Below are positions 11,908 to 36,136 of a stretch of DNA of 36,136 nt, in pieces. The stretch lies in IMG/VR virus record IMGVR_UViG_3300028394_000178, positions 1 through 36,136 of that record; one strand, 5' to 3'. The notes beneath the pieces were generated by a model. That model saw nothing but the letters and a program-made list of their open reading frames with translations. It was not told the DNA's origin and did no database searches. Position 1 is the stretch's first letter. The number at the start of each line of letters is the position of its first letter. Position numbers and translations under genes: made by a program. Source of the DNA: a virus.

Positions 11908-11948
11908 CCAACCCTGCCGGGTGCACCGCAGCTTAATACCGTGTGCTC

Positions 11949-14900
11949 ATGACAGATTTGTGGGTGGCCTACGACCCGGCTAAAGAACCTGGCGACCGGC
12001 TAGCGCCCGAAGTCGTTGACGAGATCCAGATCATTGCGCAGGCGGGCGTGGACTCTGTGGTGGGCTCCGCTGATCTTGAGGACGGCGCGGTCACCACTCC
12101 CAAGATCGCTGACCTAGCCGTCACGGCGCCTAAGCTGGCGAGCAACGCGGTCACAACGTCCAAGATCGCCGGGAACGCCATCTCAAGCGACAAACTCGGA
12201 CCCGGTGCAGTCACACCGGCCAAAGTCGGCGCGGGCGTTGTCACAAGCCACGACGTAGACAACAACGCAATCGCAATGGACGTCGTGCCAATCACGGCTG
12301 AGCAGTACGCGGCACTTCCAGAGAAGGATCCGCGAGTATTGTACCTGGTCACGGATGGGAACTCGTCGGTTGAGGTTCCTGGCGGCGGCGGTAGCGGCGG
12401 CGGTGGGGGTACGGGTCCGCAGGGGCCTGCCGGGCCAGCGGGACCGCAGGGGCCATCGGGGCCCACGGGTGCGACTGGACCGGCGGGGCCGGAAGGGCCA
12501 GCCGGTATCCAAGGCGAACCTGGACTCGGCATTCGATTTCGTGGTGAGGTCGCTACGGTGGCTGAGCTGCCGACTACCGGTCAAGTGCAGGGCGATCTTT
12601 GGATAATCGGAAACCGCGACGACGACAGTTCGCCGGCTGAGTCGTATGTGTGGGATGAGACTGACGGCTGGTTGTATGCGGGGAAGATTCAGGGGCCGCA
12701 GGGGCCGCGGGGTGTTCAGGGTCCGGCGGGGCCTGCGGGTGCTGATGGCACGCCGGGCGTTGATGGCGCGACCGGGCCGCAAGGCCCTGCGGGTGATGCT
12801 GGCGTTCAGGGTGACACGGGGTTGCAGGGGCCTGCGGGGCCGGCTGGCGCTGACGGTGCGACGGGGCCTGAGGGCCCGGCTGGCGCGGATGGTGCTCCGG
12901 GCCCGAAGGGTGATCAGGGCGACCCGGGCAACGATGGCGTTCAAGGTATTCAGGGCGAGCAGGGAATCCAGGGTGAGCCTGGCCTTGGACTGAGATACAA
13001 AGGCGAGGTCGCGACGCTGGCGGAGCTGCCCACGACTGGGAACGTGAACGGTGATCTGTGGGTTCTCGGAAACCGCGACGATGACACCCAGCCGGCTGAG
13101 TCCTATATCTGGGACGAGGCCATTAACGACTGGGTATATGGCGGCAGGATCCAAGGGCCGCAAGGCGTTCCGGGCGTCCAGGGCGTTGAGGGCCCGAAGG
13201 GCGATCAGGGTGTGCCCGGTGCTACGGGGCCTGCTGGGCCGTCTGCGGTGTCGAAGGATGCCAATAATGCGACGACGTTGGGTACTGATGGTTTGGTTTA
13301 TACGCCGTTGGGTGGTGGCGCTGTTGGGCCGCAAGGTCCGGAGGGGCCTGCGGGTCCGGCTGGCGCGAAGGGCGACACTGGGCCTGCGGGCGCGGATGGT
13401 GCCCCGGGCGTGGACGGTGTTGATGGGCAGCAGGGCATTCAGGGTGAGCCGGGTCTCGGTATCAGGTACTGCGGCGAGGTTGCTTCGCTGGCGGAGTTGA
13501 ATGCGATCACTGGTCAGAAGAATGGCGACCTGTGGGTGATCGGGAATCGCACGGATGATTCGACGCCTGCTGAGGCGTATGTGTGGGATGAGGCGCAGCA
13601 GGTATGGATTTATGCTGGCCACATCCAGGGTGTGCAGGGTGTGCCGGGTGTTGATGGTAAGGATGGTGCGGCGGGTCCGAAGGGTGACGCGGGTGCGACC
13701 GGTCCTGCCGGTGCTGATGGTGCCGTAGGGCCTGCGGGTGCGGACGGTGCGGTTGGCCCTGCGGGCGCGGATGGTGCCCCAGGAGCCGATGGTGCGGATG
13801 GTGCTGATGGCCCTCCTGGCCCGACAGCCGTGTCGGCTGATGCGGGCAACGCGAGCATCTTGGGCACTGATGGTTTGATTTTCACCCCTGCGACTGCGGG
13901 TGGCGCGTTGGTGACTGCCCCGTCTGCGTCGGCATTCCCGGCTACTGGTGAGCCCAACAAGGTGTATCTGGCGGAGGACACCGGGGATGCGTTTAGGTTC
14001 GATGCCACTGCGAAGGCTGGCACTGACAGCTATGTCCGCATCTCGGAAACCACGCTGTCTACCAAGATTGAGGACTCGACGCAGGTTGGCCGCGATCTGG
14101 TCACGGCGGTTGATGAGGCTGCTGCACGCGCCACGATTGGCGCGGAGGATGTTGCGCTGAAGGGTCAGCCTGACGGTTATGCCCCGTTGGACAGTGACGG
14201 ACTGGTGCCGTCTGTGCATCTGCCGCAGGTAGGGCCGGTTGATTTGCGGGAATGGCCCGATATCCGTAAGGCCGAGTGGAAGATGACGCTGGGTGCGGAG
14301 TACACCAGCGGCCAGAAAACTTTGAAGAACAACGTCAGCCCGTTCACTGCTGATGATGTTGGCAAGGTTGTTGTTGTGTCAGAAAATAATGGCACTGGCG
14401 GCAACGGCGGCTACACCCGGTTCATGGCGAAGATTGTGTCGGTCGATGCCGGTGGTGTTGCGACGATGGATTCGGCTGCGCCGTCGTCGGCGGCGAATCA
14501 GCGCATCAATTGGGGCTTCGATGCCACTGATGCAATCAATGCGGCGTTGGCTTCGCTTGCCGTTGATGGTGTGACTCCGCGTGAGGCGTATCTTCCTGGC
14601 CGGTATCGGGCTTCGCAGATTGTGATTCCTACATCGGTGACGTTGCGTGGTTCGGGTTGGGGTAGTTACGGCGGCACTGGGGTGACGATTGCGGGAACTG
14701 TTATCACGCAGTTGCCGGGTTCCGAGAAAAGCCTTGTGGTGTTTGCACCGTATCCTGGCTCCACCGATTTTGTTGGCCCGGTCGGTTTGTCGCACATCAA
14801 CTTGTGCGGCCCGGAGGCGAACGTCCGCAATAACGCCCCCACTAAGGGCAGTGGTGTGAGTTTCCGTACCGCTGCCGGTGTGGGTGTTGCCTCGCAGGAT

Positions 14901-16241
14901 GGTTGCGAGTTCCGTGGTGTGCAGACGGCGTTCTTCCCCGAGAACGGCTTTGAGGTTCCTGCTGGCGGGTTGCCGTTGACGTTGGAGGGCTGCCGGTTCT
15001 TCTACAACGGCAAGTATGGGTTTGATTACGACGGCCAAAACGATATGCGGACCCAGATGATTCACTTGTTGAATTGTTCTGCTGACGGCAACGTGTCGGG
15101 TGGTGTTCGGTTCCGCAACATCACGTCGTATAGCGCGATTTCGGTGACGGCGTTTAAGTCTGAGGCCGATTCGAGTGCCCTGTATGGGCAGCAGACCGGA
15201 TGGAATTACGTTCCTGGTTGGCCGGGTGTCGGTGACACGCAGATGGAAGCGTTGATCTTTGAGGATTGCGATAATTCTCCGGTCACGGTGTGTGGTGTGA
15301 ACCATGTGTACGGGGGGAACTCTCGCGGTCCTGGGCCTGCGATTCGGGTGAAGTCTGCTACGACGAAGGTGCCGCGCATTTTCTTCAGCGGTATCGCTAT
15401 TCGGGCTACGACGGGCACGGTCACTGATTCGGTGACGTTGCGGGATTCTGTGAATGCGGTGGATATTCCGCTTGCGGAGTCGGGTGGTTCGTGGCCGCCG
15501 GCTTCGCCGCGTGTTGCGGCGTTGAAGAACAAAGCCGGTGAGAACACGGTAGTGGTTCCTACTGCGACGGGTGTCGTGAACTATTTGACCGTGACTGGTG
15601 GTGTGGCTACCGGGTCGCCGACGATAGGTGTGCAGGGCGCAGATGCCACCTCGTCTATTGCGCTTGCTCCTCGCGGCGCGGGTGGGGTGCAAATCTATTC
15701 CACGTCCGGTAACGCCCGACTGGTTGCGAACGGCTCCACCGCCGACGTGAACATCAAAATTGAGACACGCGGCACCGGGGCGCAGTTCTTCGCCAACAAT
15801 GACCGCTTCGGCATCAAAGTCAACGTCCCAGCGGACTCGGCTGCCGCAGGCAAGATGGGTTACTGGGCGTGCAACGCCACCCACCTGTTCATCTACACCG
15901 GGGACAACACCACCCACACTTGGGCGAGGTTGCAGATGGAAACGACGTGGACAAGTAGTGATACGGCTGTCGATCTGAAGAACACGGTGAAGGGTTCCGC
16001 AGCCGGAACCCCAACGGGTGCTTTGACCCTCTGGACGGGCACCAAATCCCAGTACGATGCGATCCCGTCAAAGTCTGGAAATACCACCTATGTGGTCGTT
16101 GGAACGACAGCGGTAACCGGCGACATCATGGTCGATGAGGGTGCCGAGACAGGCGACATCGCGGTCGAGCCGGTTGTTGAGCCGGTGGCCGAAGAGCCGG
16201 TGGCTGACGCACCTGTCACCAAGTCCACGCGGAAGAAGTAG
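11949..16241 (+). CDS. Collagen-like tail fibre with beta-helix domain
   Basis: 1430 residues from ATG 11949 (a GTG at 11943 would add two). In order: a six-unit ladder of 10-residue repeats (AVTTPKIADL type), a Gly/Ser linker, blocks of collagen-like Gly-X-Y, three copies of a about 57-residue module starting GLG(I/L)R and containing GDLW-x-IGNR-D-D, two copies of a DANNATTLGTDGL-type motif, then a right-handed beta-helix region (about 890-1260; RASQIVIPTSVTLRGSGWG and many short beta rungs) of the pectate-lyase fold used in receptor-binding depolymerase-type spikes. The C-terminus has LWTGTKSQYDAI, a fibre-tip motif, and a Glu/Val/Pro tail ending TRKK. It probably binds or digests host surface glycans; no catalytic residues could be assigned with confidence. 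Confidence 0.88.
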   Translation: MTDLWVAYDPAKEPGDRLAPEVVDEIQIIAQAGVDSVVGSADLEDGAVTTPKIADLAVTAPKLASNAVTTSKIAGNAISSDKLGPGAVTPAKVGAGVVTSHDVDNNAIAMDVVPITAEQYAALPEKDPRVLYLVTDGNSSVEVPGGGGSGGGGGTGPQGPAGPAGPQGPSGPTGATGPAGPEGPAGIQGEPGLGIRFRGEVATVAELPTTGQVQGDLWIIGNRDDDSSPAESYVWDETDGWLYAGKIQGPQGPRGVQGPAGPAGADGTPGVDGATGPQGPAGDAGVQGDTGLQGPAGPAGADGATGPEGPAGADGAPGPKGDQGDPGNDGVQGIQGEQGIQGEPGLGLRYKGEVATLAELPTTGNVNGDLWVLGNRDDDTQPAESYIWDEAINDWVYGGRIQGPQGVPGVQGVEGPKGDQGVPGATGPAGPSAVSKDANNATTLGTDGLVYTPLGGGAVGPQGPEGPAGPAGAKGDTGPAGADGAPGVDGVDGQQGIQGEPGLGIRYCGEVASLAELNAITGQKNGDLWVIGNRTDDSTPAEAYVWDEAQQVWIYAGHIQGVQGVPGVDGKDGAAGPKGDAGATGPAGADGAVGPAGADGAVGPAGADGAPGADGADGADGPPGPTAVSADAGNASILGTDGLIFTPATAGGALVTAPSASAFPATGEPNKVYLAEDTGDAFRFDATAKAGTDSYVRISETTLSTKIEDSTQVGRDLVTAVDEAAARATIGAEDVALKGQPDGYAPLDSDGLVPSVHLPQVGPVDLREWPDIRKAEWKMTLGAEYTSGQKTLKNNVSPFTADDVGKVVVVSENNGTGGNGGYTRFMAKIVSVDAGGVATMDSAAPSSAANQRINWGFDATDAINAALASLAVDGVTPREAYLPGRYRASQIVIPTSVTLRGSGWGSYGGTGVTIAGTVITQLPGSEKSLVVFAPYPGSTDFVGPVGLSHINLCGPEANVRNNAPTKGSGVSFRTAAGVGVASQDGCEFRGVQTAFFPENGFEVPAGGLPLTLEGCRFFYNGKYGFDYDGQNDMRTQMIHLLNCSADGNVSGGVRFRNITSYSAISVTAFKSEADSSALYGQQTGWNYVPGWPGVGDTQMEALIFEDCDNSPVTVCGVNHVYGGNSRGPGPAIRVKSATTKVPRIFFSGIAIRATTGTVTDSVTLRDSVNAVDIPLAESGGSWPPASPRVAALKNKAGENTVVVPTATGVVNYLTVTGGVATGSPTIGVQGADATSSIALAPRGAGGVQIYSTSGNARLVANGSTADVNIKIETRGTGAQFFANNDRFGIKVNVPADSAAAGKMGYWACNATHLFIYTGDNTTHTWARLQMETTWTSSDTAVDLKNTVKGSAAGTPTGALTLWTGTKSQYDAIPSKSGNTTYVVVGTTAVTGDIMVDEGAETGDIAVEPVVEPVAEEPVADAPVTKSTRKK
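12087..12266 (+). repeat. Six 30-bp (10-residue) repeats in fibre N-terminus
   Basis: Units start at 12087, 12117, 12147, 12177, 12207 and 12237. The consensus at protein level is A-(V/I)-T-x-x-K-(I/L/V)-x-x-N/G. This ladder is a known fibre element that gives an extended triple-stranded shaft near the tail attachment end. Confidence 0.85.
12522..13630 (+). repeat. Three copies of a globular module between collagen-like blocks
   Basis: Copies lie at about 12522-12696, 12981-13158 and 13452-13630. Each begins GLG(I/L)R, contains GEVA-x-(V/L)-AEL and GDLW-(I/V)-(I/L)-GNR, then an Ala-Glu-(S/A)-Y-(V/I)-WDE segment, and ends (I/V)QG. A fourth, more divergent copy is in the second fibre at about 18367-18528. 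Confidence 0.88.
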
Positions 16242-17724: not shown

Positions 17725-19314
17725 GTGTCTGACAAACTTATTGCGATTGATACCGCCGATCCGCGTGGGTCGCAGTTCGCCACGGTGGTGAACGACGAAA
17801 TCAAGTATTTGATCGCGCAGAACGGCGGCGGTGCGGGCAGCACTGGGCCTGCGGGTCCAGCGGGACCGGCGGGACCGCAGGGGCCTGCCGGTGCGACTGG
17901 TGCCACCGGCCCTGCCGGGCCTGCCGGTGCTGACGGCCAGGACGGTGCGGTCGGACCTGCCGGGCCTGAAGGTCCGCAAGGCCCCCCCGGAGCGGGTAGT
18001 GGCGAAGGTGTCCCTGGCCCCGAAGGCCCCGCAGGACCAGAAGGGCCCGCCGGTCCCGAAGGCCCCGCCGGTCCCGCCGGAGCTGACGGAGCTGACGGAG
18101 CCCCAGGCGTTGACGGAACGGACGGAGCAGACGGTGCGGTTGGCCCTCAAGGTGTACCGGGTGCAGACGGCAAGGACGGGGCTGACGGTCCACAGGGTGA
18201 CCCGGGGGTGGCGGGTCCGACTGGGCCGACGGGTGCTGCGGGTGCAGATGGTGCCGTAGGGCCGGTCGGTCCCAGCGGCGTCGAAGGGCCCGCTGGCGTT
18301 AAAGGCGACCAAGGCATCCAAGGCGAACCCGGCATTCAGGGTATTCAGGGTGAGCAAGGCCCCCCCGGTCTGGGCATCACATTCAAGGGCTCTTTGCCCA
18401 CGGTCGACGATCTGCCTGACGGTGCCACACAGGGCGACCTGTATGTGGTGGAAACCCCCGCCCCGGCAACGGCATGGGTGTGGGACGAAGCGGAAGCCGC
18501 CTACGTTGATGGCGGCCCGGTCCAAGGCCCGCAAGGCATCCAAGGTCAACAGGGCATCCCGGGTGTGCAGGGCCCGGCCGGTAATGATGGTGCGCCTGGT
18601 TCGCAGGGCCCGGCGGGCGCGGACGGCGCGGCAGGCCCGACAGGTCCGAAAGGCGACACCGGGGCGGTCGGGTCGAAGGGTGACACCGGCCCTGCCGGTC
18701 CCGCGGGCGCGGACGGTGCCACTGGTCCCGCCGGCCCGGCTGGCCCGACCGCTGTGTCTGCCGACGCAGGCAACACCAGCAAGCTCGGCACCGACGGTTT
18801 AATCTTCACGCCCGCCGCGTCGGGTGGCGGCGCATACCTGCCCACCGCGGGTGGGGAAATGACCGGGGCCATCACCCTGCCCAGCGGAACAAACGGTCTG
18901 GTCATCAAAGGCACGAATTACAACCTGTTGGGTGGTAGCGGCGGTGTCGCTTTCCGCAACAACACCAGCAATATCGTCAACTTCTCTGGCGGTGAGGTCG
19001 CGGCCTACGTCCCGATCACCACCGCTGGTGCCGGTGTGGGTGTGAAGTTCGGCTCCGGCGGCCCCACGCTGTCCAAGTCGGGCACGATGATCGCCGCCTC
19101 GGCCCCGATCACCGTGGCGGCGGCACCGGCCACCAACACCGAGCTGGCGAACAAGGCGTATGTCGATGCCCAGGTTGCAGCCGGCGGCGGTGGCAGCTCG
19201 GTCACCAACCCCGTCGCGGGGTCGGTGGCAGGGATGACGATCTGGACAGGCACCCAGGCCGCCTATGACGCCCTCACGAAGTCGGCCACCGGCGTCTACT
19301 TCATCACCGGTTAG
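17725..19314 (+). CDS. Second collagen-like tail fibre
   Basis: 529 residues from GTG 17725, preceded by AGAAGGG. A short N-terminal domain ([20 protein letters not shown]) leads into long Gly-X-Y blocks (about residues 35-215 and 265-345), broken by one copy of the globular module of the first fibre (GLGITFKG...GDLYVVE...WVWDEAE). The motif [17 protein letters not shown] matches two copies in the first fibre. The C-terminus has a beta-prism-like part ([23 protein letters not shown]) and ends [14 protein letters not shown]-x8-YFITG, the same tip motif as the first fibre. It is probably a trimer and a receptor-binding fibre. Confidence 0.85.
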
Positions 19315-27515: not shown

Positions 27516-28285
27516 GCGCGGAAATGGATTTGTTCTCCGCGTCGGCTAGCCCGTTCGACGCCATTCGCATGACCGATCCTGTTGACGGCGATCTGTGGTC
27601 TGCACGCGATCTGATGCCGCTGCTTGGCTATGACGAGTGGCGAAATTTCGCGGGGGTCATTGATCGCGCTCAGGCAGCGTGCGCCAATGCTGGCGTCAGG
27701 GTGACGGGAAACTTTGTTGCCGCCAACAAAGTTTCAGGGGCACGCGGACCAGCTCAGCTTGACTTCATCCTCTCCCGCTACGCCTGCTACCTCGTCGCCA
27801 TGAATGGCGACCCGCGTAAGCCGGAGATTGCTGCGGCGCAAACCTACTTCGCTATCAAGACCCGCGAAGCCGAAATTGCACTGCCGGCACTGACTGAGGA
27901 CGAGATTGTTCACCAAGCCCTCGCCATCACCGCCCGCCGCGTCGATGAACTCACCGCCAAAGTCGCCGAACTGGAACCGAAAGCCGAGTTCTACGACGAC
28001 TTGATGGATGCCGACGGCACCTACTCATTCCAGGCCGTCGCAAACATCCTCGGCTGGGGCCGCAACGTGATGATCCGAGAACTACGCCGCGCCGGAGTGC
28101 TACAGGGCAACCGACTTCCGTATCAGCGGTATGCGCACCACTTCAAGGTCATACCGACGACCTACGTCAACCGCGGCACCGGGGAAACCGTTCCGACTGC
28201 GACAACAACGGTTCTACCGAGCGGTATTGAGTTCATCCGTAAGCGCCTTGCCCGCACGGAACTGGGTGTCGAGGTGGGCGCGTGA
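27512..28285 (+). CDS. Antirepressor, DinD-like N-terminus and KilAC C-terminus
   Basis: 257 residues from ATG 27512, overlapping the previous stop. Residues 27-120 (LWSARDLMPLLGYDEWRNF, LSRYACYLVAMNGDPRKPEI, AAQTYFAIKTREAE) match DinD/BRO-like antirepressor domains. Residues 132-160 are coiled coil (VDELTAKVAELEPKAEF). Residues 160-250 (YSFQAVANILGWGRNVMIRELRRAGVL, then YAHHFKVIPTTYVNRGTG) are the KilAC/ANT domain found in phage antirepressors. Such proteins inactivate repressors or regulate the lytic switch. Immediately downstream of the excise/Cro-like gene and divergent from the repressor, this fits a lytic-switch role. Confidence 0.85.
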   Translation: MSAEMDLFSASASPFDAIRMTDPVDGDLWSARDLMPLLGYDEWRNFAGVIDRAQAACANAGVRVTGNFVAANKVSGARGPAQLDFILSRYACYLVAMNGDPRKPEIAAAQTYFAIKTREAEIALPALTEDEIVHQALAITARRVDELTAKVAELEPKAEFYDDLMDADGTYSFQAVANILGWGRNVMIRELRRAGVLQGNRLPYQRYAHHFKVIPTTYVNRGTGETVPTATTTVLPSGIEFIRKRLARTELGVEVGA

Positions 28286-28593
28286 TCACTTTGTTCATTG
28301 ACGGTCTCACTGCGACAGTCAAATTCGTCGACCGCGTGTTCACTGCGGCCGAACAGAACGTGCGTCTCCGGGCTGCCCTCCAGCCTGTCGATGATGCGCG
28401 GCCCGCCGGGGTTGTCCCCGAAACCAGCCCCGGCGGGCAGCCCATCGAATCCACATCGGAGTTGTTGGCGATGGCGGCGACGGAGATTCAAAACCTGGCC
28501 CGCATGTCGTTCACCACTTCGATGCCGTGGGTCGAGACGTTCGCCGCTGACCTTCGTGACCGTGCCGCCCAACTCTGGGCGGCGGGGGATTAA
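28282..28593 (+). CDS. Unknown early protein
   Basis: 103 residues from a GTG overlapping the previous stop. Residues 1-40 have alternating hydrophobic and charged residues (LFIDGLTATVKFVDRVF); 60-100 are helical (ELLAMAATEIQNLARM, FAADLRDRAAQLW). No motif recognised. It closes the first block of the early operon; a hairpin follows before the next gene. Confidence 0.65.
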   Translation: MITLFIDGLTATVKFVDRVFTAAEQNVRLRAALQPVDDARPAGVVPETSPGGQPIESTSELLAMAATEIQNLARMSFTTSMPWVETFAADLRDRAAQLWAAGD

Positions 28594-28611
28594 AGCCCCA
28601 TCAAATAAAGC

Positions 28612-28640
28612 GGCGCCGCCCGGGACTAGCGGGCGACGCC
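28612..28640 (+). other. Intergenic hairpin in early operon
   Basis: GGCG/CGCC and GCCCG/CGGGC arms separated by a 2-by-2 internal loop and capped by GGACTAG. It lies in the 75-base gap between 28593 and 28669. No U-run; it could be an attenuator or mRNA stabiliser. Confidence 0.5.
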
Positions 28641-28668
28641 ATACCCACTGGAAATCAAAGGAGAATCA

Positions 28669-29214
28669 GTGAGCAAGCAAAGAATAACTGGCAGCGACAA
28701 CATCACTTTGTTGTGGACGCCTCGGGACAGCATCGACACGGCCAGCCAGTTTCACCTCGAAATGGACAACGCTGAACGTGGCGTCCGCGACGACGTTGAG
28801 ATCGCCGACCCGGTGCAGATGCGGCAGGCGTTTGATCCGCAGGGATGGCTGATGTCGCAGTCCCGGTTCCGCAAAGCCAAGGTGTACGACTTCTTGGCGG
28901 TCCTGTTGATGTTGGCGACGATGGCCGCGCTGGGCTGCGCCGTGTTCTTCCTGTCCACGCCGCAAGCCAAAGCCGACCCAATCGACCCGGTCGCGGTCGC
29001 ATACGCAGCGCACTACGCGGGTGCGGTGTGCGCCACCCTGGACGACTTCCCCAACCTGAACGGCATCCTGGGTTTGGTTTCGGCCATCCAAGACGACGGC
29101 CTGACTGCCGGCCAAGCCGGTGCCGCCATCGGGCTGTCCGTGGCTGAAGCGTGCCCGCGCTACGAACCACTGCTGGAAGCCTTCATCAACCGGTACGGGT
29201 CGGTGAACGTATGA
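28669..29214 (+). CDS. Membrane-anchored DUF732-like protein
   Basis: 181 residues; GTG with AAAGGAG at 28657-28663. Residues 1-70 are a charged cytoplasmic part, 73-96 a transmembrane helix (DFLAVLLMLATMAALGCAVFF) and 100-181 a domain with Cys121 and Cys162 (AVCATLDDFPNLNGILGLV, LTAGQAGAAIGLSVAEACPRYEP) that fits the DUF732 pattern. The secreted version at 24069 has a cleavable signal, but this one has a long N-terminal tail, so it is anchored with the domain outside. A role in altering the envelope during early infection is inferred. Confidence 0.75.
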   Translation: MSKQRITGSDNITLLWTPRDSIDTASQFHLEMDNAERGVRDDVEIADPVQMRQAFDPQGWLMSQSRFRKAKVYDFLAVLLMLATMAALGCAVFFLSTPQAKADPIDPVAVAYAAHYAGAVCATLDDFPNLNGILGLVSAIQDDGLTAGQAGAAIGLSVAEACPRYEPLLEAFINRYGSVNV

Positions 29215-29420
29215 ACCAGCGACGCCACCTCGAGTTGCTGTTGAACCGGCCCGGCGGCCACATCGTCGCCGTCAACCCACACCACTGCCGATTCGGCAAC
29301 ACCCACCAACCCGTGTGCGTCGAAGACGGCTGCCACTACGTCGGCCCGTTCGTGAACGAAGCCCGCGCCCGCGAAATCGCCGAAGAACACCGACGCAAAA
29401 CATTGGAGAACCACCGATGA
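29211..29420 (+). CDS. Small Cys/His-containing protein
   Basis: 69 residues from ATG 29211, overlapping the previous stop (ATGA). It has NPHHCRFGNTHQPVCVEDGC followed by an H and a charged C-terminal helix (EAREIAEEHRRK). The spacing of Cys and His suggests zinc binding. No function recognised. Part of a chain of coupled small early genes. Confidence 0.65.
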   Translation: MNQRRHLELLLNRPGGHIVAVNPHHCRFGNTHQPVCVEDGCHYVGPFVNEARAREIAEEHRRKTLENHR

Positions 29421-29656
29421 GCGACGACTGGCCCATCATCCAATTCAAACCCGGCCCTACCGACGCCGAGCTGGAAGCTGAACGCGACCGCAAACACAAC
29501 CTTGAAGTTGCTCGCGAAACCGGCGTCGAGCACCTTTGCCTCGCCCCGGCCCCGCAACGCTACGGCGCATTCGGAGTGTGGCCGCGGTGCGCCCTCGTCC
29601 GACACCACACCGGCGTCCACTCCACCACTTACGGCAAAACGTGGGCGGCATCGTGA
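29417..29656 (+). CDS. Small protein of unknown function
   Basis: 79 residues from ATG 29417, overlapping the preceding stop. An acidic start with a Pro (DDWPIIQFKPGPTDAELEAE) is followed by a helix and a His/Cys-containing tail (HLCLAPAP, RCALVRHHTGVHSTTYGK). Similar RHHxGxHsT endings occur in small actinophage early proteins, by my recollection. No function assigned. Confidence 0.62.
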   Translation: MSDDWPIIQFKPGPTDAELEAERDRKHNLEVARETGVEHLCLAPAPQRYGAFGVWPRCALVRHHTGVHSTTYGKTWAAS

Positions 29657-29769
29657 AGGGCTTCGCGATCCTCGCCACGATCTTGGCGTCGCTGGTGGGT
29701 TGGCTGTTCTTCGCCGCCAGCGCACGCGCCGACACGACCACGCCAGCCGCGATCGTGGTGGTCGTGTGA
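29653..29769 (+). CDS. 38-residue secreted or membrane peptide
   Basis: GTG at 29653 overlaps the previous stop. The peptide is a Lys followed by a hydrophobic core (ILATILASLVGWLFFAA) and a signal-peptidase-like ARA before Asp-Thr-Thr-Thr, leaving only about 12 mature residues. It is too short for most gene finders. Function unknown; coupling with the next tiny TM peptide suggests they act as a pair. Confidence 0.55.
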   Translation: MKGFAILATILASLVGWLFFAASARADTTTPAAIVVVV

Positions 29770-29843
29770 GCGACATCGTCTGGTACGTCGCTGTGGTGAT
29801 CGTCGCCATCGCAATGGTCGTCCACACCGGCTGGTGGCGGTAA
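29766..29843 (+). CDS. 25-residue transmembrane peptide
   Basis: GTG at 29766 overlaps the previous stop as GTGTGA. DIVWYVAVVIVAIAMVV is a single helix ending in HTGWWR. Stop TAA shares its last base with the next ATG. The coupled arrangement on both sides supports it as real, though its shortness limits confidence. Confidence 0.45.
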   Translation: MSDIVWYVAVVIVAIAMVVHTGWWR

Positions 29844-29977
29844 TGAACAACGACAACCGCCGCACATTCGTGGAACGCCTCGACGCCGCAAAAACCGGTG
29901 AGCAGTTCGGAGCCGTACTCAACGACCTGTTCGCCCACCTCGACAACGCACGCGACCAAGAAGAGGACAACGAATGA
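29843..29977 (+). CDS. 44-residue acidic helical protein
   Basis: ATG at 29843 shares a base with the TAA before it. FVERLDAAKTGEQFGAVLNDLFAHLDNARD is an amphipathic helical hairpin with an acidic tail (EEDNE). No family recognised. Confidence 0.55.
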   Translation: MNNDNRRTFVERLDAAKTGEQFGAVLNDLFAHLDNARDQEEDNE

Positions 29978-30144
29978 CCAAAATCTATTTGTGCCCGGTT
30001 TGCCGCCGGGCCGTCAAACCCACGCGGGGCGGCAACATTCCCGCTCACCTTGACTCCATCCGTGAGGACACCTGCCCCGCGGGCGGCTATCCGTTCGACA
30101 TCACGTTGGTGTTGACACCGGAGTTCGGGCTGGTGGCGTCGTGA
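29974..30144 (+). CDS. 56-residue zinc-ribbon-like protein
   Basis: ATG 29974 overlaps the preceding TGA. IYLCPVCRRAVK, then GGNIPAHLDSIREDTCP gives a C-x2-C...H...C set typical of small phage zinc fingers. Stop overlaps the GTG of the exonuclease gene. Likely nucleic-acid binding. Confidence 0.62.
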   Translation: MTKIYLCPVCRRAVKPTRGGNIPAHLDSIREDTCPAGGYPFDITLVLTPEFGLVAS

Positions 30145-31046
30145 GCGTTGCGATTCAGCCCGGATCACCGGAACACATGCGCCTGATAACTCCAAGCAAG
30201 GTGAGCGCGATTCTCGGCGTGTCGCGCTTTACAAGTGCATACCGGATCTGGAATCAGATGGCCGGTCTGGTTGAACCTGAACCTGCCAAAGAGATCTTCG
30301 CCCTCGGCCACGACTTTGAGCCGGCAATGGCTTCCATTTGGAAACGGCAAAACCCGGGCTGGCGACTCTCCGCAGACGAAGTGCAGATCGTCGTGCCAGC
30401 CGAACGGTTCGGGTTCCCGGCCGCCGTCACGCTGGACCGCAGAGCATCCCGAGGCAGGGCACGCAAAGTGGTGGAGTTCAAGACCGCGAGGGATCTGTCG
30501 CAGTGGGGTGATTACTTCACCGACCAGGCGCCCGCCGACTACGTCGCCCAAGTCACCGCACAAATGCTGTTTAGCGGCTACACCTCGTATCCGGCTCACT
30601 TGATGGTGTTGGGCCCATTTTTTGAGGCGCACACCTACGTCATCGAGTTTGACGCTTTGGTGGCAGCCACGATCGTGTCGCGCTGCAAAGCGTTCTACGA
30701 CTCTTTGCAAGCCGGTGTCCCACCCCACCTTGACGATTCGGTGTCGTCGTACCAGACCGTGCGGGAGCTGCATCCCGACATCACGCCCGACAGTGTGGTT
30801 GAGGTCGATCCTGAACTGGCGGTGCAAGTCCTCCAACTCGACGCCGCACTGAAGGACACGGAACGCGCCACACGCGGCCACAAGTCGCTGCTCCTCGACG
30901 CGATGGGCAACGCCCAAACCGCCATGTGCGGGGGCGTGAAGATCGCCGACCGGCGCCCGCACGCCAAAGGCGGCGTCGCCCTGGCGCTCGCCACAAAGAA
31001 CCTCAACCAACTCAACACCAACACCGAAGGGGAACTATCAGCATGA
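30141..31046 (+). CDS. YqaJ/lambda-type recombination exonuclease
   Basis: 301 residues, GTG start overlapping the previous stop. The fold is of the YqaJ viral recombinase group of PD-(D/E)XK nucleases: LITPSKVSAILGVSRF, Glu60 in ALGHDFEPA, Asp99 in AAVTLDR, Glu112 and Lys114 in VEFKTARD, then YVAQVTAQMLF. It would resect double-stranded ends 5'-3' to expose single strands. The next gene encodes a RecT-type annealing protein, as in the mycobacteriophage Che9c pair gp60/gp61, so the two make a recombination system of the RecE/RecT kind. Confidence 0.88.
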   Translation: MSVAIQPGSPEHMRLITPSKVSAILGVSRFTSAYRIWNQMAGLVEPEPAKEIFALGHDFEPAMASIWKRQNPGWRLSADEVQIVVPAERFGFPAAVTLDRRASRGRARKVVEFKTARDLSQWGDYFTDQAPADYVAQVTAQMLFSGYTSYPAHLMVLGPFFEAHTYVIEFDALVAATIVSRCKAFYDSLQAGVPPHLDDSVSSYQTVRELHPDITPDSVVEVDPELAVQVLQLDAALKDTERATRGHKSLLLDAMGNAQTAMCGGVKIADRRPHAKGGVALALATKNLNQLNTNTEGELSA

Positions 31047-32101
31047 CCATCGAACCGATCAACACCAACGAGATTGAACTGCTGCCACCGGCCCGGCCGG
31101 CGCAGGCGAACTCGACCGCGCAGTTGATGTCGCACGTCCAGGCGATGGGCGCCGCCAAACAGCTCGCCGACGCCCTGTGCGACACCGACATGGTGCCCGC
31201 CACCTACCGAGGGAAACCCGGCAACGGCGCCGCAGCCATCCTCTTCGGCCAGGAACTCGGGCTCAACCCCATCCAGTCGTTGCAGCACATCTTCGTCGTG
31301 CACGGCAGCCCCGCGATCTACGCCCGCACCGCCGTCGCGTTGTTGAAGCGCCACGGCATCAAGTTCCGCACCATCGAAGAATCCCCGACGTGCGTCACCA
31401 TCCGGGCCGAACGAGGAGACGAAGCCGAAGAGTCCACCTGGACGATCGAACGCGCCCAAAAAGCCGGGTTCACTAACAACAAAAAGTATTCGACCGAGCC
31501 GCAACAGATGTTGTATGCGAAGGCCGCGATGGAAGTGTCGCGGCGGATTGCCCCCGACATCCTGTTGGGCATCGCCTACTCCACCGAGGAGTTGGAGCTG
31601 TCCGAATCGCAGCAGTCGTCTCGGCCAGTGCAGTCTCAGCGCCCCGCTCCGGCTGCGCCGCGGCGTGGTGTGGAGGGGCTACGCAACGCGATCACCCCCG
31701 CCGCCCCGGTAGAGGCTTTGGTGGTCGACGTCGAACCCGAGCCGGCACCCGAACCCGCCCCAGCGAAGCGTGAGGCGGGTCAAGCCCCCACCGGCATGGC
31801 ACCCACCACCCGCAAAAAGTGGGTTGCGTCCATGTTCGCTGCGCTCGCTGAAGCGGACTGCGAAGAACGCGACGACCAACTCACCGTCATCACCGATTTG
31901 GCGCAACGCCGCCAAAACCCGCCGGAGCATCGCGACGGCATCACCGACGACGAACTCCGCATGGTGGTCAACGCCTTGAATGCGGCCCGCAAAGACGGTG
32001 CACTCGGCCAGGTCGTCACCGACATCCTCAACAACGCCGCAATACGCGAAGCCGGCATCACCGAGGACGACGACCTGTTCGCCGAAGACGATGACGCATG
32101 A
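31043..32101 (+). CDS. RecT-type single-strand annealing protein
   Basis: 352 residues from ATG 31043, overlapping the exonuclease stop. The core (about 25-190) contains GNGAAAILFGQELGLNPIQS, HIFVVHGSPAIYARTAVAL, AGFTNNKKYSTEPQQMLYAK and RRIAPDILLGIAYSTEEL, the pattern of phage RecT-like annealing proteins. The C-terminal 150 residues are Pro/Ala-rich then acidic (EDDDLFAEDDDA), a typical tail for binding partner SSB. It binds ssDNA made by the upstream exonuclease and anneals it to complementary strands. Confidence 0.85.
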   Translation: MTIEPINTNEIELLPPARPAQANSTAQLMSHVQAMGAAKQLADALCDTDMVPATYRGKPGNGAAAILFGQELGLNPIQSLQHIFVVHGSPAIYARTAVALLKRHGIKFRTIEESPTCVTIRAERGDEAEESTWTIERAQKAGFTNNKKYSTEPQQMLYAKAAMEVSRRIAPDILLGIAYSTEELELSESQQSSRPVQSQRPAPAAPRRGVEGLRNAITPAAPVEALVVDVEPEPAPEPAPAKREAGQAPTGMAPTTRKKWVASMFAALAEADCEERDDQLTVITDLAQRRQNPPEHRDGITDDELRMVVNALNAARKDGALGQVVTDILNNAAIREAGITEDDDLFAEDDDA

Positions 32102-32544
32102 CCGCCCCCGCACTGTGCCGCGTTGAGTTTTGGGTACCAGGCAACCCCGCCCCACAAGGCTCAAAATCGTTTAAAGGGTTTGCCGGTAACGGCCGCGCCA
32201 TCCTCGCCGAGTCGTCCAAATCGGTCGGGCCGTGGCGTGAACGTGTCGCCTTCTTCGGGATGCAAGCCATGCAATCCGATGCCGCCACACCATTCGCTGG
32301 CGCGGTCACCGTGAGCCTCGAGTTCATTTTGCCGCGGCCTGCGTCGGCGTCGAAACTCAAAGTGCTACCCGCAACGAAACGCCCCGACCTTGACAAATGT
32401 GCCCGGGCCTGTTTGGACGCACTCACCAACGTGTGCTTCCTTGACGACTCTCAGGTCGTCCAGTTGGTGGCGTCGAAACGGGTCGCGTTGTTTGGTGAGC
32501 CGTCGGGCTGCCAGTTCACTGTCACGGCGGGGCCCGCGGCGTGA
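32098..32544 (+). CDS. RusA-type Holliday junction resolvase
   Basis: 148 residues; ATGA overlap. FWVPGNPAPQGSKSF at the start, then RPDLDKCARACLDALTNV with Asp97, Asp99 and Asp107 and FLDDSQVV with Asp116 and Asp117 match the RusA acidic cluster; Lys127 follows. It resolves four-way junctions made by the preceding recombination enzymes or during replication. Confidence 0.9.
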   Translation: MTAPALCRVEFWVPGNPAPQGSKSFKGFAGNGRAILAESSKSVGPWRERVAFFGMQAMQSDAATPFAGAVTVSLEFILPRPASASKLKVLPATKRPDLDKCARACLDALTNVCFLDDSQVVQLVASKRVALFGEPSGCQFTVTAGPAA

Positions 32545-32876
32545 GCGACAACGAGTTTGACGAAGCCGCCGCCGAAGCATTCCTACAAACCCCGGCCACC
32601 CCGCTACACAGCGGCGTCACCGGCATCCTCGCGGCCGCCGACAAAATTGAGGCCCGCATCGTTGAGGCCGAGAAACTCCACGCCGCCCTCGAGCAGATCA
32701 AACAGCTCCACGCGGCGATCGTCATGCCCATCAACGACCATTTGTTGCTGCTGTGTGATCACTGCTGCTTCGACGACGCCGGCCAGCAGACCGATGATTG
32801 CGCCAACAGCCACGAACACACCGTGGATGGGCCTGCCTGCCACACCGCCGAAATCATCGCCAGGAGCGGACTGTGA
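32541..32876 (+). CDS. Cys/His-rich early protein
   Basis: 111 residues, GTG start overlapping the RusA-like stop. Residues 25-65 are a helical segment (LAAADKIEARIVEAEKLHAA). The C-terminus has LLCDHCCFDD, then DDCANSHEH and CHTAEI, with ligands spaced as in zinc-binding domains. Function unknown; similar proteins sit among actinophage recombination genes. Confidence 0.65.
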   Translation: MSDNEFDEAAAEAFLQTPATPLHSGVTGILAAADKIEARIVEAEKLHAALEQIKQLHAAIVMPINDHLLLLCDHCCFDDAGQQTDDCANSHEHTVDGPACHTAEIIARSGL

Positions 32877-34399
32877 TCACACTGACCGACCTGTTCTGCG
32901 GCGCAGGCGGCAGCTCCACCGGGGCCGTCAACATCCCCGGCGTTCAAGTACGCATGGCATCCAACCATTGGGATCTCGCCGTAGAAACCCACAATCGCAA
33001 CCATCCTGACGCAGATCATCTGTGCGCCGACCTGTCGCAGATCGACCCCCGCTACTTCCCGCGCACCGACATCCTCTGGGCATCACCGGAATGCACCAAC
33101 CACTCAGTGGCACGCGGCAAAAGACGTGCCGACGCCCAACCCGACTTATTCGGAGAAATACTGCCCGACGCCGCCGCGGAACGCTCCAGGGCCACCATGT
33201 GGGACGTTCCCCGCTTCGCCGAGGTACACCGCTACGAAGCCGTGATCGTGGAGAACGTCGTAGACGCCTGGAACTGGGAGCCGTTCAGGGCGTGGCTCAT
33301 GGCAATGGACTGCCTCGGCTACGACCACCAGCCCGTGTTCCTCAACTCGATGCACGCCCAAACATTCGGGCTCGGTGCACCGCAGTCCCGCGACCGCATG
33401 TACGTGGTGTTTTGGCGGAAAGGCAACCCGGCACCCGATCTGGCTCGGGTGAACCGCCCCGACGCACTGTGTCCGCAGTGCGGGCCGGTGAAGGCTTTGC
33501 AGTGGTGGAAAAGGCCGGCACCGAACTGGGGCCGCTACCGGGCGCAATACCTGTACCGCTGCCCCAACGTGAAATGCCGCAACAGTGTGGTGGAGCCCAT
33601 GTTTCGGCCCGCCGCGGAGATCATCGACTGGGAGTTGATGGGTCAAAGGATCGGCGATCGTGCTAAGCCGTTGGCCGATAAGACGTTGGCCCGCATCCAA
33701 GCCGGGATTGACAAATACTGGGGCCCGTTCATCACTGAACACCGGCATGAGTACCGGACCCGGGACATCACCCACCCGATGCAAACCGTCGCGGCATCCG
33801 GTAACCACTTCGGGTTAGCCGTTCCCGTGGAAGGCCGCGACGGTAAGCAAGCCCTACCGGTCTCGGTGCCGGCGCGAACTATGACGACCCGCAACGAGAC
33901 CGGGTTGGCATTCATTGCGGAGCTGCGCGGCGGCGGATCGAAACATCGGGCCGTCACCGAACCCCTCGCCACCGTCACCGCATCCGGTAATCATCACGGC
34001 TTGGTCACCACCTACTACGGCAACGGATCAACCAACACCACCGACGACGCCCTATCGACCTGCACCACCGTCGAACGCCACGCACTGCTGATGCGCAACA
34101 ACAGCAGCAAAACCAGCGGCGCCGAAATGTCCACACCGGTCACAGAGGCAATCCGCACCATCACCACCACCGGCCACCAATCCCTCCTCGAGGCGCAACA
34201 GCCCACAGTCGACGTCAACGATGTGCTGTTCCGCATGTTGGAGCCGTCTGAGATCAAACGGGCAATGGACTTCCCAACCGACTACCTCATCCTCGGCAAC
34301 CGCCGCGAGCAAGTCCGCATGTCCGGCAACGCGGTCACACCGCCAGCCGCACGGGATCTCGTCGGGGTCGTCGCCGAATCACTGCGGGCCACCCGATGA
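32873..34399 (+). CDS. C5-cytosine DNA methyltransferase, divergent
   Basis: 508 residues from GTG 32873 (overlaps previous TGA). Motif I is DLFCGAGGSSTG; motif IV is WASPECTNHS with catalytic Cys74, replacing the usual PPCQ; motif VI VIVENVVD (127-129); motif VIII QSRDRMYVVFW (171-175); motif X SGNAVTPPAARDL (485-491). The target-recognition region holds a zinc-ribbon-like insertion (Cys200, 203, 230, 235) and five imperfect copies of a P-(L/M/A)-x-T-(V/M)-T-x7-L pattern between residues 301 and 440. It likely methylates cytosine in phage DNA, giving protection from host restriction. Site specificity cannot be read from sequence. Confidence 0.88.
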   Translation: MITLTDLFCGAGGSSTGAVNIPGVQVRMASNHWDLAVETHNRNHPDADHLCADLSQIDPRYFPRTDILWASPECTNHSVARGKRRADAQPDLFGEILPDAAAERSRATMWDVPRFAEVHRYEAVIVENVVDAWNWEPFRAWLMAMDCLGYDHQPVFLNSMHAQTFGLGAPQSRDRMYVVFWRKGNPAPDLARVNRPDALCPQCGPVKALQWWKRPAPNWGRYRAQYLYRCPNVKCRNSVVEPMFRPAAEIIDWELMGQRIGDRAKPLADKTLARIQAGIDKYWGPFITEHRHEYRTRDITHPMQTVAASGNHFGLAVPVEGRDGKQALPVSVPARTMTTRNETGLAFIAELRGGGSKHRAVTEPLATVTASGNHHGLVTTYYGNGSTNTTDDALSTCTTVERHALLMRNNSSKTSGAEMSTPVTEAIRTITTTGHQSLLEAQQPTVDVNDVLFRMLEPSEIKRAMDFPTDYLILGNRREQVRMSGNAVTPPAARDLVGVVAESLRATR

Positions 34400-34521
34400 A
34401 CCACGCCTGCGAATGCGAACACCCGCCCGCCGACCACTACAACCAGGTCGGCCCCTGCGAACACTTCGAGGACGACTTCCCCTGCAACTGCCCGTTCTAC
34501 ACCTTCCAGGGAGATGACTAG
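34396..34521 (+). CDS. 41-residue Cys-rich protein
   Basis: ATGA overlap with the methyltransferase stop; the TAG is followed directly by the next ATG. CECEHPPADHYNQVGPCEHF and FPCNCPFY give six Cys and three His in 41 residues, so it is probably a zinc-binding micro-protein. It may partner the methyltransferase, judging only from coupling. Confidence 0.6.
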   Translation: MNHACECEHPPADHYNQVGPCEHFEDDFPCNCPFYTFQGDD

Positions 34522-35022
34522 ATGCCCTCCGACTGTGGTTCCACCCGACGTTTACAAGCCCTCACCGCCATCGGCTGGGACACCGACACCCTCGCCCACG
34601 AACTCGGCTGGACAACCACCCAACTCACCCAAGCCCTCACCGGACACACACCACCACACACCCGACACCACATCACCCAGCTCTACAACCAACTCTCCAT
34701 GACCCCCGGACCATCCACACAAGCCCGCCAACACGCCCAACAACACGGCTGGCCACCACCACTCGCCTGGGACGACGACGACCTCGACAACCCCACCGGC
34801 ACACCCGCACCCGGCTGGCAACCCAAAACCAGCACCCGCCAACCATTCCTCACCCGCTACCAAGAATGGCGCACCCTCGGCTACACAGACCTCGAAATCC
34901 TGCACCGCTTCAACATCCGCCCCGACACCCTCGCCACCATGCTCCAACGCGCCGGCCAACCCGTCAGCCCCCAACTCTCCCAAGCCAGCCACCAACACAA
35001 AAACCGGCAAGCCTACGCATGA
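34522..35022 (+). CDS. HTH-containing protein of actinophage type
   Basis: 166 residues, ATG directly after the previous stop. Residues 8-50 (TRRLQALTAIGWDTDTLAHEL, then WTTTQLTQALTG) form one HTH-like unit and 113-140 (YQEWRTLGYTDLEILHRFNI) a second. A Pro/Asp-rich middle links them. The DNA is unusually rich in C and A on this strand, with nearly all third positions C, unlike the upstream genes. Probably a DNA-binding regulator; targets unknown. Confidence 0.68.
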   Translation: MPSDCGSTRRLQALTAIGWDTDTLAHELGWTTTQLTQALTGHTPPHTRHHITQLYNQLSMTPGPSTQARQHAQQHGWPPPLAWDDDDLDNPTGTPAPGWQPKTSTRQPFLTRYQEWRTLGYTDLEILHRFNIRPDTLATMLQRAGQPVSPQLSQASHQHKNRQAYA

Positions 35023-35267
35023 CCCGAAACAACCGTTACCGAAAAACGGAACCGCAGCGCAAACCCCTTGCCTGGCAACACTTTGCCGCCGCAGTCGCAA
35101 ACGGATTCCAGCCACCACAAGGACGCGGCCGATGCCGAGAATGCGGGTTTCACGTAGCCACACAGCAACACCGGGCCGGATGCCCCAAGGAACGCAGCAG
35201 TGCACCCTCCGCGAGTACACAGAAACAGCCACACACGCGCAGAAGCAAACAGGAGCCGACGCAATGA
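35019..35267 (+). CDS. Small basic zinc-finger protein
   Basis: 82 residues, ATGA overlap. Basic N-terminus (RNNRYRKTEPQRKPLAW) followed by CRECGFHVATQQHRAGC, a C-x2-C-x3-H-x5-H-x3-C finger, and a Ser/Gln-rich basic tail. Likely nucleic-acid binding. Confidence 0.65.
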   Translation: MTRNNRYRKTEPQRKPLAWQHFAAAVANGFQPPQGRGRCRECGFHVATQQHRAGCPKERSSAPSASTQKQPHTRRSKQEPTQ

Positions 35268-35449
35268 CCGAACGTAGGTGGGCCACCGAACTCGAAGCCG
35301 CCGACTACGCACGAATCAGCGGAAACACGTTGCGGCGCTGGCGCTCCGAAGGCCGCATCGCCGGCTACAAGATCAGCCGCACCGTCCGCTACGACCTCAA
35401 CGAGATCGACGCCGTCCTCGCAGCCGCAGCGGACAACGCCGATGGCTAA
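35264..35449 (+). CDS. Small HTH protein (MerR/excisionase fold)
   Basis: 61 residues; ATGA overlap, AGGAG at 35251-35255. LEAADYARISGNTLRRWRSEG followed by AGYKISRTVRYDLNEIDAVL is the compact winged HTH of the excisionase/MerR group. It precedes the replication-like gene by an 8-base overlap and may regulate it or the origin within it. Confidence 0.72.
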   Translation: MTERRWATELEAADYARISGNTLRRWRSEGRIAGYKISRTVRYDLNEIDAVLAAAADNADG

Positions 35450-36136
35450 CGCGACCGGGATGATCCGTGAATCCATTTGGCGTGACGGCGACTGGCGACT
35501 TCTGTCTCGCGGCGCCCAGGCCCTCTACATGCAACTGATCTCCCAAAAGGAACTCGACTGCGCCGGCGTCCTACCCTTACAGCCACACAAATGGGCCAAA
35601 GGGTGCGCCGACCTCACCGTCGAACAAGTGTGGGCCGACCTAGACGAGCTACAGCAGTGCCGATTCGTGTTCTACGACGTCGACACCGACGAAGCATTCA
35701 TCCGCAGCTACGTCCGCAACTCAAATGTGTTGAAGATCCCGAACATGCGCAAAGCCGCCGGGAGGGCAGCCCTACTCGTCGGATCACACCGCATCAGAGC
35801 CGCCCTCGCCGTCGAACTCAAAGCCACCAAACACCCCGACTTCGCCCCCATCGTCACCCAACTCGCACCCCCCAAAACCCCCAAAAATACGAACCCTTCA
35901 CCTAACGGTTCCATTAACGGTTCACCGAACGGTTCCGCAACCCTAACGGAACCCACGGGTGTGGGTATGGGTATGGGAGAGGGTGTAACTGTTGGTAATC
36001 AGTTAAGGGAGGGAGCGCAAAACGGCCGCCCCCAATGCCCCCGACACGAAACCAACACCGAAGACACCCACTGCCGGCCATGCATGAAACGCCGCGAATG
36101 GGACGAAAAACACCAAGCCCAACAACAAGCCAACGA
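35442..36136 (+). CDS. Replication-initiation-like protein (3' end outside window)
   Basis: At least 231 residues, open to the right edge. The N-terminal part (MIRESIWRDGDWRLLSRGAQ, LYMQLISQKELDCAGVLPL, KWAKGCADLTVEQVWADLDEL, FVFYDVDTDEAFIRSYVR) is a winged-helix domain conserved in actinophage replication regions. Then come a Pro-rich linker, a repeated NGS stretch coded by iteron-like DNA and a Gly/Met run, followed by a Cys/His motif (CPRHETNTEDTHCRPC). Winged-helix plus linker and downstream domain suggests a helicase-loader or initiator role. The last gene in the window and after HTH gene; the repeats inside it may be its own binding sites. Confidence 0.65.
   Translation, partial: MANATGMIRESIWRDGDWRLLSRGAQALYMQLISQKELDCAGVLPLQPHKWAKGCADLTVEQVWADLDELQQCRFVFYDVDTDEAFIRSYVRNSNVLKIPNMRKAAGRAALLVGSHRIRAALAVELKATKHPDFAPIVTQLAPPKTPKNTNPSPNGSINGSPNGSATLTEPTGVGMGMGEGVTVGNQLREGAQNGRPQCPRHETNTEDTHCRPCMKRREWDEKHQAQQQAN
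35904..35935 (+). repeat. Three AACGGTTC iterons, 12-bp period
   Basis: Exact AACGGTTC at 35904-35911, 35916-35923 and 35928-35935, and a degenerate AACGGAAC at 35945-35952. All lie inside the replication-like gene. Confidence 0.8.
35957..35983 (+). other. Five GGG runs at 6-bp spacing (G-quadruplex motif)
   Basis: GGG at 35957, 35963, 35969, 35975 and 35981, each separated by three bases. The regular spacing meets the G-quadruplex rule. AACTG-N8-CAGTT at 35987-36004 follows. Confidence 0.7.

Follow-up and report, generated by a model that had tools for sequence, protein, structure and literature searches.

A replication initiator gene at the right end of the phage record

The window, the whole 36,136-base stretch of viral DNA analysed here, carries tail, lysis, integrase, repressor, RecE/RecT-like, RusA-like and DNA-methylase genes, and at its right end lies a replication initiator gene (35442-36136, plus strand), of which 231 amino acids are visible, the 3' end being cut off by the end of the contig. 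The assignment is based on phage relatives and on a profile match of the product to phrog_3171, 'replication initiation protein' (E 2.3e-53, residues 1-228). A C-5 cytosine DNA methylase gene at 32798-34396 is ~77% identical in DNA to gene 64 of Gordonia phage Bosnia, and near DNA matches of the region 28000-36136 in the phage collection are to methylase genes only.

Relatives of the initiator turn up in 360 phage records, the majority from phages of Mycobacterium, Gordonia and Arthrobacter; 'replication initiation protein' and 'RepA-like replication initiator' are frequent annotations among them. Among viral contigs a single-sequence scan detected only two relatives and an alignment-based scan 58, and a search of plasmids returned only four matches, all weak. 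Searching solved structures with the initiator by sequence profile gave no match, Foldseek of its model against the PDB gave none at E 0.001, and Pfam and NCBIfam searches returned no meaningful family.

The AlphaFold2 model divides the protein into three parts. The N-terminal winged-helix domain, the presumed iteron-binding domain (35454-35867, residues 5-142), is modelled with pLDDT mostly above 90, and its best structural matches include the RepA N-terminal domains 4PQL, 4PT7, 5KBJ and 4PTA (Z 6.4-6.7), tied with other winged helices: the match to 4PQL has Z 6.7 and rmsd 2.6 over 83 aligned residues, and Zur, CRP and others score within 1 of it. The following linker (35886-36020, residues 149-193) is disordered (pLDDT <50), and its DNA holds the candidate origin. 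Beyond it begins a Cys/His (zinc-type) C-terminal domain (36033-36110, residues 198-223), whose Cys/His positions are invariant among relatives.

Repeats, a periodic tract and a least stable segment in the linker DNA

As the initial annotation had proposed, the repeats lie within the linker region of an initiator-like winged-helix gene. Three exact iterons of the sequence AACGGTTC, with a 12-bp period, are read on the plus strand at 35904-35911, 35916-35923 and 35928-35935. Counting both strands of the 36 kb, AACGGTTC occurs 6 times against 1.45 expected, a number that none of the shuffles reached. Upstream of the three iterons lies an iteron-like site on the minus strand (AAGGGTTC, 35891-35898). 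What had been taken for a degenerate fourth copy does exist as a site, but is better read as an inverted iteron-like site on the minus strand (GGGTTCCG, 35947-35954), which lies in another reading frame.

The iterons are followed by a 6-bp-period tract (ACGGGTGTGGGTATGGGTATGGGAGAGGGT, 35955-35984, plus strand) containing the five GGG runs described earlier at exact 6-bp spacing (starts at 35957, 35963, 35969, 35975 and 35981); a comparable short-period tract occupies the same place in most relatives. Overlapping the end of the tract is a candidate DNA unwinding element (35978-36007): no other 30-mer of the gene region is less stable, and within the whole window it belongs to the least stable 0.13%. 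Its AT-rich core (35985-36007, 65% AT) contains TTGGTAA and the inverted repeat AACTG-N8-CAGTT, present as reported at 35987-36004; this inverted repeat is also found at 14696 and by itself is unremarkable. The plus-strand GGGAGGG at 36007-36013 corresponds to TTGGGGA, the block with which the element closes in relatives.

Coding constraint and selection on the DNA

Since the protein linker is itself repetitive, with NGS and G-x repeats, the DNA repeats might merely follow from coding constraint, and the initial annotation allowed that this could explain part of them. Using a null in which the protein was held fixed and the codon usage was that of the phage, repeated 6-, 7- and 8-mers in the window gave p = 0.009, 0.011 and 0.015, respectively, and the presence of three identical 8-mers given three NGS gave p = 0.026. 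The GGG tract of the window did not rise above coding constraint (p = 0.17), and the three exact iterons share one frame with a period of four codons. Taken alone, the window exhibits repeats that exceed coding constraint only modestly. By raw repeat score, 13 of 1801 segments rank above the linker, collagen-like tail-fibre genes among them; the strongest repeat scores of the window belong to two genes of tail-fibre type (11943-16241 and 17725-19314), which encode long collagen-like Gly-X-Y repeats.

The relatives argue against this explanation. Protein-preserving codon shuffles of 28 relatives revealed an excess of repeats in the linker (combined p 2e-42, compared with 0.01 for the N-terminal control), and although these combined p-values overstate independence, as the genes form 11 clusters at 65% N-terminal identity, frame, strand and spacing are unaffected by this. 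The iteron spacing produced an autocorrelation peak at lag 11 with a z of 11.4 over the protein-preserving null, and an 11-bp period breaks the reading frame. Besides the window, 27/28 relatives carry iteron cores in 2-4 strand/frame classes, their spacing often being 11 or 22 bp. The motif TCACCT, absent from the window's own gene, was found in 15/28 genes and in all three frames, compared to a null maximum of 6. In other relatives the tract has a period of 5 bp (GACCC repeats), or the gene is shortened and the array follows it.

In 25 distinct sequences of the M. abscessus type, synonymous variation was 0.025 in the iterons and 0.041 in the tract and less stable element, compared with 0.060 in the N-terminal domain. 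These lower values may hint at constraint on the DNA and are suggestive only. In the alignment of homologous genes, which had been put forward as a check, the DNA repeats persist despite changes of residues, of reading frame and strand, and even of whether the DNA is coding. Pure coding constraint is largely ruled out by frame, strand, spacing and extragenic arrays, and we consider it highly improbable that the DNA repeats merely follow the protein. By comparison of these sequences the repeat block is shown to be under selection as DNA.

A common layout among actinobacterial phages

For comparison, 70-odd homologous loci were reduced to 29 non-redundant genes. In these the linker block consists of iterons about one helical turn apart, followed by a short-period tract and then by the gene's least stable DNA, this third part being a less stable element that often includes TCACCT and ends in TTGGGG. 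The layout recurs in Mycobacterium, Gordonia, Corynebacterium and Arthrobacter phages, and the iteron cores vary from phage to phage (AACGGTTC, GAACCCT, GACCCC, TCGATA, TTGACCCC and others). With 1.35 kb examined for each gene, a manual count placed the least stable 30-mer in the tract or just 3' of it in 22/29 genes. At locus L054 (2501-3454) the iteron section seems to have been tandemly duplicated, giving 10 ACGGTT cores, a sign of array expansion.

Two groups of phages provide natural experiments. Arthrobacter phages Sonny, Beans, Wyborn and Mufasa8 have a short initiator gene with the array downstream of it, where it exhibits a sharp 12-bp period (autocorrelation 0.48-0.63). Across the array no gene is annotated in Sonny, Beans and Wyborn, and in Mufasa8 an annotated hypothetical gene covers part of it. 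Such downstream iteron arrays with their tracts were located in Arthrobacter phage loci L116 (2538-2796), L117 (2538-2827), L010 (3520-3756) and L115 (2466-2839). The second group is another initiator family, that of Wee and its relatives (L009, 2404-3255, and L104-L112), which differs both in its N-terminal domain and in its repeats, palindromic ones such as TGTCCACCGGGGACA, and has a tract of 5-bp GACCC units that is unable to follow codons. This family and the phrog_3171-type family have in common only the C-terminal domain (hhalign probability 99.2). As the N-terminal domain and the iterons were swapped together and the C-terminal domain was kept, the type of iteron travels with the N-terminal domain.

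The periodic tract and the proposed G-quadruplex

The initial annotation had pictured a lambda-like origin with an added quadruplex-forming tract. At least four GGG runs are indeed present in the window and in several relatives, yet with both strands of the linker considered only 15/29 genes had a G4 motif. Tracts such as CAGTATCAGTATCAGTATC contain no GGG, other relatives have CAGTAT, CAGTTC, GGATCT or CTCCTA units (CAGTAT- or CAGTTC-type tracts in L059, L060 and others), and in some the pyrimidine-rich strand is on top. As the period and the place persist and the G-runs do not, the quadruplex is ruled out as a conserved element, and an origin whose G-tract acts as a G-quadruplex is unlikely. 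What persists is a short-period tract and an easily melted segment. Of the earlier proposal, the lambda-like layout of an origin within the initiator gene is strongly supported by the homologues, and the added quadruplex is not supported as a conserved element. Homology to lambda O itself is not supported either.

Discussion

Based on our data we propose that this temperate actinobacterial phage very probably starts replication inside its own initiator gene, at an origin in the linker DNA. This reading is well supported because iteron cores occur in several reading frames and on both strands, with a spacing that breaks the frame, because arrays occur outside the gene, and because the N-terminal domain is swapped together with the iterons; the origin activity of the linker block itself is what we infer from these comparisons. 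The winged-helix N-terminal domain would bind AACGGTTC-type iterons, and their spacing of about one helical turn would align the bound initiators on one face of the DNA. The bound initiators may then strain and open the adjacent periodic tract and the AT-rich element at 35978-36007, the predicted site of melting, upon which the zinc-type C-terminal domain could recruit the host replication machinery.

An array that binds the initiator could instead be there for copy control, incompatibility or autoregulation, and replication would then truly begin at another place. Plasmid iterons also act in copy control, sites inside a gene could repress that gene, and GC skew is inconsistent among the four relatives with complete genomes, its turn coinciding with the site or lying close to it in Wyborn and Tortellini, while GAL1 and Eyre show no such turn there. 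On the other hand, the fixed order of iterons, tract and least stable DNA in most relatives fits an origin with an unwinding element, and in all four genomes (4/4) the linker or array site is the strongest repeat cluster, so that a purely regulatory array seems rather unlikely to us. Less probable still, and by a long way, is that the array acts in partition, as a centromere of the prophage or of the phage DNA: parS-type sites, too, typically have arrays of direct repeats (PMC7157519), but the phage has an integrase gene, a scan of window genes recognised neither parA nor parB, and the array stays with the initiator gene rather than with partition genes.

Relatives of the initiator are present in hundreds of sequenced actinophages, including prophages of Mycobacterium abscessus, and a simple rule, to search the initiator linker or the DNA just 3' of a shortened gene, would predict where the origin lies in many of these phages. 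For origin architecture in GC-rich hosts, natural experiments are on offer in the form of domains swapped along with their iterons, iterons shifted in frame, and arrays outside coding sequence, and such origins could give new replicons for mycobacterial and Gordonia genetics. In the literature searched we found no description of this origin, nor an origin mapped for phages with this initiator.

Among known systems, phage lambda carries its iterons in gene O, between the parts encoding the DNA-binding and C-terminal portions, followed by the least stable DNA (PMC5043065). Lambda O served as a positive control: the repeat test recovered its known iterons, and the least stable 30-mer lay just 3' of them; the test also rings in the N-terminal part of O and is thus sensitive but not fully specific. 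In both systems the initiator gene contains iterons with easily melted DNA after them; they differ in that lambda has 18-bp iterons ~20-24 bp apart, whereas here 8-bp cores are 11-12 bp apart and a tract lies between the iterons and the AT-rich part. No counterpart of lambda P was recognised here, and as to a sequence relation with lambda O, there was no Pfam match in 17 members and hhalign against lambda O gave a probability of 0.1. The oriL of the Bacillus phage SPP1 has direct repeats and an AT-rich unwinding element inside initiator gene 38, which encodes gp38 (PMC6316719), a likeness drawn here by layout; unlike the phage studied here, SPP1 encodes a helicase and a loader of its own and has a second origin.

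The pSK41-type RepA_N replicons combine a winged-helix N-terminal domain, Rep boxes in the centre of rep, an origin-encoded linker domain and a lineage-specific C-terminal domain, and pPR9 is a natural RepA_N chimera in which the N-terminal domain and the origin were swapped (PMC5703833). Both features have their parallel here, as the repeats coincide with the disordered linker and the N-terminal domain and the iterons are exchanged together. On the RepA_N pattern the N-terminal domain would bind the iterons, and primase would be contacted by the C-terminal domain. The differences are the Cys/His-type C-terminal domain, the GC-rich iterons and the additional periodic tract; the structural match is weak and tied, and the RepA_N domain (PF06970) had no match in 17 relatives at E 1 and none in the window. 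In Cluster A mycobacteriophage RepA prophages (Miko, Rachaly, Jeeves) the origin is thought to lie in or next to the initiator gene; their RepA is described as plasmid-type, with a length of 320-350 aa, and the DNA from the tail genes to parS-L yielded no identified repeats (PMC7157519). In contrast, the repeats are plain here.

The DnaA-trio, too, is a tract of short period that separates initiator boxes from the site of opening; it is made of repeats of one trinucleotide, 3'-(G/A)AT, beside DnaA boxes and is bound by DnaA (PMC10797057). The tract described here has a similar position but a period of 5 or 6 bp and a sequence that varies freely. By analogy it is conceivable, though we put this forward only tentatively, that the tract is a separate, sequence-flexible and register-dependent origin element where a filament of the initiator or of a host factor assembles on one strand and opens GC-rich origins; such an element would be an analogue of the DnaA-trio without being one, and common to two initiator families with different N-terminal domains and one C-terminal domain. 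The logic of the layout is known from oriλ in gene O, SPP1 oriL in gene 38 and pSK41-type RepA_N replicons, and the origin proposed here is a variant of that kind.
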